37,615 nt of DNA, from the NCBI GenBank assembly GCA_902615805.1, contig CACMQH010000010.1:1-37615 (forward strand). The letters are read 5' to 3'. This document shows, piece by piece, positions 8,722 through 11,206 of the stretch; position 1 is the stretch's first letter, and every line of letters starts with the position of its first letter. The notes under the pieces are model-generated. The model saw only the letters and a list, made by a program, of their open reading frames with translations, made no database searches and had not been told where the DNA came from. Made by a program: the position numbers and the translations under genes. The DNA comes from Rhodospirillaceae bacterium (GTDB lineage Bacteria; Pseudomonadota; Alphaproteobacteria; TMED109).

Positions 8722-10005
8722 CTATATTGAGTTTAAAGCATTATCTAAATCACCAATTATATCATCTATGTGCTCAATGCCTATAGAAAGCCTAATATAA
8801 TTGTCAAAAACACCAGCTTTTTCTTGGTCCTCTTTACTTAGTTGGGAGTGAGTAGTAGATGAAGGGTGTATAGCTAAGCTTCTAACATCTCCAATATTTG
8901 CTACATGATAAAATAATTTTAGTTTATCAATAAATGTCTTACATGCTTTATAGCCCTTATCTATATGAAAGCCAATTAAATTACCATATAAATTTTTGTT
9001 AAAATATTTTTTATTTTTATTATTGTTATTAGGATAAATAACTTTAGATACATTTTTTTGATTTTCTAAAAACTCTGAAACTTTGGTAGCATTCTGAGAC
9101 TGTCTTTCAATTCTTAAAGGTAGTGTTTCAATTCCTTGTATGAATTGAAATGCATTAAAAGGGCTCATAGCTGAACCTAAATCTCTTAATAGTGTTGTTC
9201 TAGCTTTAAGTATGTAAGCTATAGGTCCTAATGGTTTAACCGCCTCTGTCCAAACGACTCCATGATAACTTGGATCAGAGTTATTCAAAGCAGGTTGTTG
9301 ATCTTTAAATTTTTCCCAAGCAAATTTTCCACTATCTACTATTATTCCTCCAATAGCACTTCCTTGTCCTCCTATGTATTTAGTTGTAGAATGAATTATT
9401 ATAGCTGCACCAAACTGAAAAGGTTTACATATATAGGGTGCAGCTGTATTATCTAAAATTAACGGGATACCGATTTTTTGTCCTATTTTAGCTACCTCTT
9501 CAATAGGAAAGATATTTAATTTTGGATTTGGTAGTGTTTCACCAAAATAAGCTCTTGTCTTATTATCAGAAGCTTTTTTAAAAGCACTAGGATCACTTGG
9601 GTCAACAAATCTAACTTCAATACCTTGATCTTTTAATGTATTGGCAAATAAATTCCAAGTTCCACCATAGATGTCTGTTGAACTTACTATGTTATCGCCA
9701 TTTCTAGCAATATTTTGAATAGCTAATGCTGATGCAGATTGTCCTGAGGATACTGCTAAAGCTGCGACTCCACCTTCAAATGCTGCGACTCTTTTTTCTA
9801 AAACATCACATGTTGGATTCATTATCCTTGTATATATGTTGCCTAACTCTTTTAAAGCAAACAAATTTTCAGCATGTTGCGCATTGTTAAATTGGTAGGA
9901 AGTAGTTTGATGTATAGGTACAGCAACAGAATTAGTGCTTGGATCAGCACGCCACCCGGCATGTACTACTTGTGTTTCTTCATTTGTAAAATTTGAATTT
10001 GACAT
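8722..10005 (-). CDS. metY: O-acetylhomoserine sulfhydrylase MetY (Cys/Met metabolism PLP enzyme)
   Basis: This 427-aa PLP enzyme makes homocysteine from O-acetylhomoserine and sulfide (or methionine from methanethiol) in the cytoplasm. Seen in the sequence: TTSYQF and YTRIMNPT near the N-terminus (phosphate and cofactor contacts), SSGQSA, LDNTAAPYICKPF with the PLP-binding Asp, and HSTTKYIGG with the Schiff-base Lys. C-terminal RLSIGIEHIDDIIGDL is typical of the family. ATG 10005 is chosen over an upstream ATG at 10038 because AAAAGGAG lies directly before it. The SAM-II riboswitch upstream supports the methionine-pathway call. MetZ-type O-succinylhomoserine sulfhydrylase is less likely given the length. 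Confidence 0.93.
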   Translation of the reverse strand: MSNSNFTNEETQVVHAGWRADPSTNSVAVPIHQTTSYQFNNAQHAENLFALKELGNIYTRIMNPTCDVLEKRVAAFEGGVAALAVSSGQSASALAIQNIARNGDNIVSSTDIYGGTWNLFANTLKDQGIEVRFVDPSDPSAFKKASDNKTRAYFGETLPNPKLNIFPIEEVAKIGQKIGIPLILDNTAAPYICKPFQFGAAIIIHSTTKYIGGQGSAIGGIIVDSGKFAWEKFKDQQPALNNSDPSYHGVVWTEAVKPLGPIAYILKARTTLLRDLGSAMSPFNAFQFIQGIETLPLRIERQSQNATKVSEFLENQKNVSKVIYPNNNNKNKKYFNKNLYGNLIGFHIDKGYKACKTFIDKLKLFYHVANIGDVRSLAIHPSSTTHSQLSKEDQEKAGVFDNYIRLSIGIEHIDDIIGDLDNALNSI

Positions 10006-10036
10006 ATTATCTCCTTTTCTGTTTATGCTCCAGAAC

Positions 10037-10079
10037 AAAAAAAATAATACTGTTAGATGTTTACCTCTTTAGCAGTATT
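10037..10079 (-). terminator. Possible terminator or expression platform behind the SAM-II aptamer
   Basis: On the minus strand AATACTG (10079-10073) can pair with CAGTATT (10052-10046) across a 20-nt loop, followed by A and eight T residues (10044-10037). The stem is weak (7 bp, two GC pairs) but the T-run is clean. It overlaps the 3' part of the aptamer, so it cannot form together with the SAM-bound pseudoknot. Whether it terminates in vivo is uncertain. Confidence 0.4.
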
Positions 10080-10117
10080 TATAATGCGCTCGCAAGCTGG
10101 AGCTCAAATCAGCGCAA
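10063..10117 (-). promoter_or_regulatory. SAM-II riboswitch aptamer (metA motif) in the metY leader
   Basis: Read on the minus strand, the leader contains GCGCTGATTT, a loop, TTGCGAGCGC, then ATTATAAATACTGCTAAAGAGG. This matches the SAM-II aptamer as I know it: the P1 hairpin (TGCGCT 10116-10111 with AGCGCA 10090-10085), the AUAAAU connector and the GCUAAA-purine 3' segment. A pseudoknot is possible between loop bases CUC and AGC and the downstream GAG and GCU. SAM-II is common in alphaproteobacteria upstream of metA, metX, metY and metZ genes, which agrees with the gene here. Binding of S-adenosylmethionine is expected to repress expression. Confidence 0.9.
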
Positions 10118-10162
10118 AACATAATCTATTTATTTTTTTAAAAAAGTCAATATGTTTATTAT

Positions 10163-11206
10163 ATGAACGTAGCATTTATTTATAATGATATATATAGAAA
10201 TTCACTTTTTGGCGAAAACCATCCTATCACAGAGAAGAGAATTTCTAATGTTTATGACTTATCCAAGATAATTGGTTTTAAGAATGTAAAATACTATAAA
10301 AGTTCTATAGCTAGTGTTAAAGAATTATCTATTTTTCATGATAAAGATTATATAACTGCCTTATATCAGGCTGAAAAAAAACAAAAAGTTACTTTGGAAA
10401 ATATGAAAAAATTTAATATAGGTACTACAAGCAATCCCATATTTAAAGAAATGTACAGGAGGCATGCTGTTGCAACTGGAAGTTTAATATTAGGATCTGA
10501 TTTAATACTTAATAAAAAATTTAACTACATCTTTTCTCCTGGATCGGGAGCTCACCATGGAAAAAAAAATAAAGCATCAGGTTTTTGTTATTTTAATGAT
10601 ATAGCTACATGTATTTTATATCTAAAAAAAAATAATATTAAAAAAATAGTTTACTTCGATATGGATGCTCATTATGGAGATGGAGTTATGGAGTATTTTA
10701 AATTTAGTGAGGATATTCTGACTATTTCAATACATCAAAAAAACCTTTGGCCAAGGAATGGTGATTATTTTTATGAAGATAATTTTATAAGCTTTCCTGT
10801 AGAGGAAGGATTTAATGACACTAAATTTAAAGATATTTTTGAAAAAAAAATAGAAATGAAAATAAAACAATTTAAACCTGAAGTAGCAATTTTACAAATG
10901 GGAGCAGATTGTTTAATTGATGACCATATGTCAAAACTATGTTTGACTAATAATTCTATGAAATTCACTATTGAAAAGTTTAAAAATTTATCAAAAAATA
11001 TAATAGTTATGGGAGGTGGTGGATACAATCCTTGGATAACTCTTAGAGCATGGATATATAATTTGGCAACTTTAGCAAATGAAGATAGTAAATTAAATTT
11101 GAATAGTAAAGGCAAAGATTTTTTGAAAAATATTAAATGGAAAAAAAAACCAAAACAAAATTGGCTAAATGAAATTACTGATTTACCAAATATTTTTAGT
11201 CTTTAG
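10163..11206 (+). CDS. Histone deacetylase family (AcuC-like) deacetylase
   Basis: The 347-aa protein is a zinc-dependent class I/II-type deacetylase. Catalytic features visible: paired His H131-H132 in GSGAHHGKK, the zinc ligands D168 and H170 in FDMDAHYGDG, the third ligand probably D254 in GADCLIDDHM, and the Tyr of MGGGGYNPW. Bacterial members deacetylate protein lysines (AcuC acting on acetyl-CoA synthetase), polyamines or other small acetyl compounds; the substrate here cannot be told. The third zinc-ligand block (IDDHM instead of the usual AGDPL) is divergent. It is divergent from metY and its riboswitch leader, and may share the roughly 45-bp promoter zone. Confidence 0.9.
   Translation: MNVAFIYNDIYRNSLFGENHPITEKRISNVYDLSKIIGFKNVKYYKSSIASVKELSIFHDKDYITALYQAEKKQKVTLENMKKFNIGTTSNPIFKEMYRRHAVATGSLILGSDLILNKKFNYIFSPGSGAHHGKKNKASGFCYFNDIATCILYLKKNNIKKIVYFDMDAHYGDGVMEYFKFSEDILTISIHQKNLWPRNGDYFYEDNFISFPVEEGFNDTKFKDIFEKKIEMKIKQFKPEVAILQMGADCLIDDHMSKLCLTNNSMKFTIEKFKNLSKNIIVMGGGGYNPWITLRAWIYNLATLANEDSKLNLNSKGKDFLKNIKWKKKPKQNWLNEITDLPNIFSL

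Follow-up and report, generated by a model that had tools for sequence, protein, structure and literature searches.

A candidate distal translational expression platform for the SAM-II riboswitch upstream of metY in one alphaproteobacterial order

The metY leader and the complement of its aptamer loop

The window analyzed here is a stretch of 37,615 nucleotides (nt) of DNA from a Rhodospirillaceae bacterium (contig CACMQH010000010.1), and the element in question is the leader of metY, a methionine/S-adenosylmethionine (SAM) gene that is read from the minus strand downstream of a SAM-II riboswitch aptamer (Table 1). On that strand the leader reads GCGCUGAUUUGAGCUCCAGCUUGCGAGCGC...GCUAAAGAGG...UUUUUUUUGUUCUGGAGCAUAAACAGAAAAGGAGAUAAUAUG. 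Several SAM-II hallmarks were found in it, namely stem P1 (GCGCU/AGCGC, 10115-10111 paired with 10090-10086), L1 as GAUUUGAG (consensus GAUUUG) and L3 as GCUAAAG. The P2 pseudoknot carries no score in the Rfam RF00521 model and was judged by eye; only CC/GG pairs clearly, and the consensus CCGACC/GGUCGG is absent. Judging from alignment to SAM-II, pseudoknot P2b of the SAM-bound state would have its 5′ strand in the CC at 10100-10099, within the aptamer loop, and the GG at 10065-10064 as partner. In relatives, RF00521 scores ranged from 35.4 to 44.7 bits, two of them just below the cut-off. A permissive scan of positions 9900-10300 detected no SAM-V downstream of the aptamer, and the idea of a SAM-V remnant there was rejected.

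An earlier note on this DNA had pointed to an exact 7-nt complement of the aptamer loop near the metY start, and both 7-mers lie where it had placed them. The loop sequence GCUCCAG is matched by CUGGAGC (termed here the switch strand) 64 bases downstream, and the metY ATG follows 21 nt past this strand. The note had also held the match to be improbable by chance. For the window leader alone, dinucleotide shuffles of the 58-nt AT-rich stretch gave p = 0.0065 for matching 7 nt of the 13-nt loop, which by itself is modest support; across the 37.6-kb window, CTGGAGC has five occurrences where 1.14 would be expected. Much stronger support for the note's statement came from the relatives described below.

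Table 1. Features of the metY leader region in the window
Feature	Positions	Strand	Basis
metY, O-acetylhomoserine sulfhydrylase, regulated gene	8722..10005	-	TIGR01326 1.2e-172, over cut-off; PF01053
SAM-II (SAM_alpha, RF00521) aptamer	10048..10125	-	cmscan 42.4 bits, cut-off 36
Aptamer-loop 7-mer GCUCCAG	10097..10103	-	sequence
AAUACUG, can pair with CAGUAUU (10052-10046)	10073..10079	-	constrained fold
Conserved SAM-II 3′ segment (L3 + 3′ strand of P2b) GCUAAAGAGG	10064..10073	-	Rfam alignment
CAGUAUUAUUUUUUUU, terminator-like 3′ arm + U-tract; predicted second role as strand pairing Shine-Dalgarno and start codon	10037..10052	-	bound-state fold, pair list
CUGGAGC, the switch strand, exactly complementary to the loop 7-mer	10027..10033	-	sequence, fold and alignment analyses
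Predicted OFF-state hairpin covering Shine-Dalgarno AAGGAG (10016-10011) and AUG (10005-10003)	10002..10053	-	constrained folds; ribosome-binding-site hairpin z = -3.33

Conservation and covariation of the loop complement

The order of the source genome was represented by 28 genomes, 17 of which had a SAM-II match. Seventeen complete metY leaders from five genera (g1, which includes the window, g2, g5, g6 and g8) were compared, one split leader having been completed from its second contig (L223). An exact complement of the leader's own aptamer loop was present in all 17, with a length of 7 nt in g1, 8 nt in g6 and g8, and 9 nt in g5 and g2; in the g2 leader one of the nine bases is N in the record and seven are certain. 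Its position varied from 34 to 93 nt after GCTAAA and from roughly 20 to 48 nt before the start codon. Shuffle p values for single leaders ran from <0.0005 to 0.024, but the leaders are related, so these values are not independent and must not be multiplied. The weight rests instead on the retention of the complement in linkers that are otherwise unalignable: MetY identity between genera is 70-81%, and the linkers share only stretches of 7-14 nt.

Changes in the two strands were then compared between genera, the check that the earlier note had proposed. In the three GC-rich g8 leaders the loop reads GTTCCAG and the switch strand CTGGAAC, a change from C-G to U-A on both sides, and in g5 and g2 the register is shifted, with AAGCUGGAGUU facing AGCUCCAGCUU in 11 pairs including one G-U. 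In the loop/switch alignment, 81.3% of the cells pair at register 0, compared with 22.7-51.3% when one segment is slid by 1-3 columns. The sequences thus retain their complementarity and show changes that agree with it, with covariation proper being thin: the compensatory change in g8 is a single event.

In a class-wide sample no loop of the form GAG[CT]TCCAGCTTGC was found outside this order, nor did a pattern scan for homologues return anything from viral contigs. On genome contigs, the matches listed by the same type of scan were for the most part either variants of SAM-II other than this one, from alpha-, beta- and gamma-proteobacteria, or unrelated sites.

A predicted hairpin over the ribosome-binding site

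In the window, the predicted hairpin (10053-10002) pairs CAGUAUUAUUUUUUUU with AAAGGAGAUAAUAUG and the UCUG of the switch region with CAGA; within it, the CUG of the switch strand faces CAG at 10021-10019. In the genus of the window, a former terminator arm and U-tract appear to have been converted to a strand covering the start codon. The sequences involved differ between genera: UCCUUUCC...GGGAAGGA around AAGCUGG:CCAGUUU in g5, AUUUUAU..UUCU..AGGA..AUAAAAU in g6, and CUCCCC facing the Shine-Dalgarno GGGGAG in g8, where the order of anti-Shine-Dalgarno, switch strand, hairpin and Shine-Dalgarno is the same. In most leaders by far, the switch strand is part of the predicted sequestering hairpin; among the g8 folds examined, one (L037) leaves the strand unpaired. 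Hairpin energies were below those of shuffled sequences in 17/17 leaders (z from -1.43 to -3.92). When the aptamer was blocked, as a mimic of SAM binding, the ribosome site folded into a hairpin in each of the 17, with no more than 0.23 of the Shine-Dalgarno core unpaired. RNAalifold on the hairpins gave pairs consistent across leaders and no double changes. To the observation of the earlier note these folds add that the switch strand would belong to a hairpin sequestering the Shine-Dalgarno, whereby the switch would gain an output.

Folding of the two alternative states

All folds were calculated as nested structures, in which the pseudoknot could be imitated only by blocking bases; P1 opens in these folds once loop and switch strand pair. 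When the loop was made to hold the switch strand, the Shine-Dalgarno opened in two of three g1 leaders, rising from 0.02 to 0.42 in the window and from 0.06 to 0.58 in the other. It also opened in three of four g6 leaders, where values of 0.09-0.10 rose to 0.55-0.86. In transcripts ending 8-14 nt beyond the switch strand, the probability of the loop:switch pairing was 0.58-1.0, and in many of them it dropped once the 3′ arm of the hairpin had been made. In the genus of the window, the folds also suggest that AAUACUG/CAGUAUU may form a second ON-state helix beside loop:switch, which would be a competitor of the SAM-bound aptamer as well as of the sequestering hairpin.

Other observations on the leaders

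The riboswitch is located in the intergenic region common to metY and a divergent gene (10163-11206, plus strand), whose product has a PF00850 histone-deacetylase domain (1.3e-60) and no NCBIfam match. P2a (UUGCG with the bases preceding CUAAA; window 10094-10073) seems, by eye, degenerate in this order, with UACUG and UCCGG against UGCAG in other SAM-II variants, and this might lower the affinity for SAM. Four g8 genomes of 92-97% completeness (G012, G018, G023 and G027) gave no SAM-II match although their congeners have one, which may point to loss or replacement of the riboswitch within this genus.

Discussion

Taken together, the SAM-II riboswitch of the metY leader probably acts as a translational OFF switch through a distal expression platform. 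Without SAM, the loop GCUCCAG would capture CUGGAGC upstream of the ribosome-binding site as the latter strand exits RNA polymerase; held there, the switch strand would be kept from the hairpin that hides the Shine-Dalgarno, and metY would be translated. With SAM bound, the loop would be taken up by the SAM-II pseudoknot, and the freed switch strand would complete the hairpin over the Shine-Dalgarno (and over the AUG in the genus of the window), turning metY off. The loop could thus enter the switch pairing or the SAM pseudoknot, never both, and the switch strand the loop or the hairpin, never both. An OFF state upon SAM binding is the direction expected for a methionine gene. The earlier note had proposed that such a long-range pairing competes with SAM binding and serves as the switching partner, a proposal that gains computational support from the retention of the complement in 17/17 leaders, with the compensatory change in g8 and the register shift in g5 and g2; alternation of the two pairings in the cell, with SAM as the driver and translation as the output, is what we infer.

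Several results weigh against this interpretation. Full-length RNA at equilibrium favours the sequestering hairpin in most leaders, with loop:switch probabilities of 0.00-0.36 in the leaders tested, so that the model needs co-transcriptional (kinetic) control, the ON state being formed during transcription. Holding the switch strand made little or no difference to the Shine-Dalgarno in g2, g8 and most g5 leaders (L043 of g5, in which access rose from 0.02 to 0.55, is an exception), and the change was also small in L031 and L034. The one pair altered on both sides in the loop/switch alignment represents a single event among seven rows, and for this reason 73 of 500 shuffles of the columns equalled it. 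Conservation of the switch strand could be due in part to the hairpin itself. Finally, the aptamer, its exact complement, the retention of this complement in 17 leaders and the predicted hairpin are all computational results, and they come from one order.

The weak shuffle support for covariation would also suit a strand conserved only for the hairpin at the ribosome site, its complementarity to the loop being accidental or the remnant of a duplication, and in g1 and g5, as well as in some g8 folds, the CUG(G) of the strand does pair within that hairpin. GAGC, however, is invariant in g1, where it occupies the hairpin loop, and in g6, where it is mostly bulged, and every genus keeps a loop match of 7-11 nt, with the A-for-G change of g8 mirrored in the loop; we regard this explanation as improbable. 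Not quite so improbable, but still unlikely, is that the distal strand captures the loop after polymerase has passed, leaving SAM-II blind to SAM and the co-transcriptional decision final. The small equilibrium effect on Shine-Dalgarno access in g5 and g8 would fit such capture, as would the Pelagibacter bhmT tandem riboswitch, in which SAM-II loses its response to SAM when the linker that follows it is present and regains it with antisense oligonucleotides directed to that linker (PMC11508383). A pure lock of this kind needs no Shine-Dalgarno-hiding hairpin, yet the strand is predicted in one in most leaders. The terminator-like hairpin of the window (AAUACUG/CAGUAUU, with two G-C pairs and a 20-nt loop) is, moreover, too weak for the consensus terminator scan, which did not score it.

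Position speaks to the level of control. The switch strand begins 4 nt past the U-tract in the window, a few nt past it in the genus of the window, and tens of nt past it in g5 and g2. Termination would therefore be settled before polymerase has made this strand, whose position marks it as a partner in translational and not in transcriptional control. A role of the complement as a transcriptional antiterminator was rejected on these grounds and seems very unlikely. A terminator with its own antiterminator (GGUGGUU/AACCACC versus ACCAC/GUGGUUUUUUU, read by eye) precedes the switch strand in g5, where control may be double. A chance 7-mer match devoid of function would be in keeping with the p value of about 0.007 for the window leader alone, but hardly with a feature present in 17/17 leaders of five genera with unalignable linkers, and we give it next to no credence.

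Among known systems, the Sargasso Sea metX SAM-II riboswitch (PDB 2QWY) has its Shine-Dalgarno as the 3′ strand of the pseudoknot, and that of Sinorhizobium meliloti metA acts at a distance, yet via a Shine-Dalgarno within the riboswitch (PMC9373788). The metY leader shares with both the aptamer class and, as predicted here, a pseudoknot with the loop at its centre and translational shut-off of a methionine gene by SAM. It differs in that its Shine-Dalgarno does not overlap the 3′ strand of P2 as in metX but lies about 50 nt 3′ of the aptamer GG, which in the window puts it about 85 nt from the loop; a separate switch strand would provide the connection. The presence of a loop complement downstream recalls the terminator-coupled SAM-II riboswitches of alpha- and beta-proteobacteria, such as S. 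meliloti metZ; terminator-type SAM-II is common. There the terminator hairpin contains the complement, with variant-loop matches of at least 7 nt located 21-27 nt past GCTAAA; in the metY leaders the complement follows the U-tract and is found at the ribosome site.

Among 78 other variant SAM-II leaders, from other proteobacteria, a terminator-hairpin complement (AAGCTG/GCAAGC) of the conserved loop CAGCTTGC reached at least 7 nt in nine, against 1.2 in shuffles, and none had a complement of at least 7 nt at 60-200 nt downstream. The nine carriers are L085 (up to 11 nt), L091, L110, L129, L142, L150, L161, L183 and L030. A loop-specific terminator match was unsupported in these leaders: swapped loops gave 7.3 matches against the nine observed, so the terminator complement targets the conserved part of the loop. 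As a separate observation, two SAM-II-like cores (GATTTGAG...AGCTTGC...GCTAAAGCG) stand about 150-200 nt apart in L199, L200, L206, L208 and on G055 C1 (near 2499289 and 2499456). One core of L206 passes the Rfam cut-off and none of L199 or L208 does; these are possible unannotated tandem SAM-II arrays.

The nearest experimental precedent is the Pelagibacter tandem, where sequence 3′ of SAM-II, including the U-tract region, interferes with SAM-II and two-level control was proposed; unlike that system, the window has no SAM-V past its aptamer, and the accessible portion of the paper reports no defined loop complement (PMC11508383). The literature searched, most subscription papers lying outside the search, gave no account of a switch strand complementary to the loop and placed at the ribosome site. 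The chances appear to us about even that the metY leaders represent a previously undescribed SAM-II platform of one alphaproteobacterial order, with the pseudoknot loop as the anti-sequestering strand and a distal strand alternating between the loop (ON) and the Shine-Dalgarno hairpin (OFF).

How SAM-II expression platforms work has so far been poorly established. A 2007 survey noted that their mechanisms had no experimental demonstration (PMC2258182), and in a 2024 study the sequence after SAM-II was found to silence the aptamer for a reason left unexplained (PMC11508383). To this question the metY leader offers a concrete, conserved base-pairing partner. If the proposed switch is true, the control exerted by a compact pseudoknot aptamer would extend to a start codon located about 60 nt past it (about 90 nt from its loop), and the leaders would afford a view of how a terminator arm can become a translational sequester.
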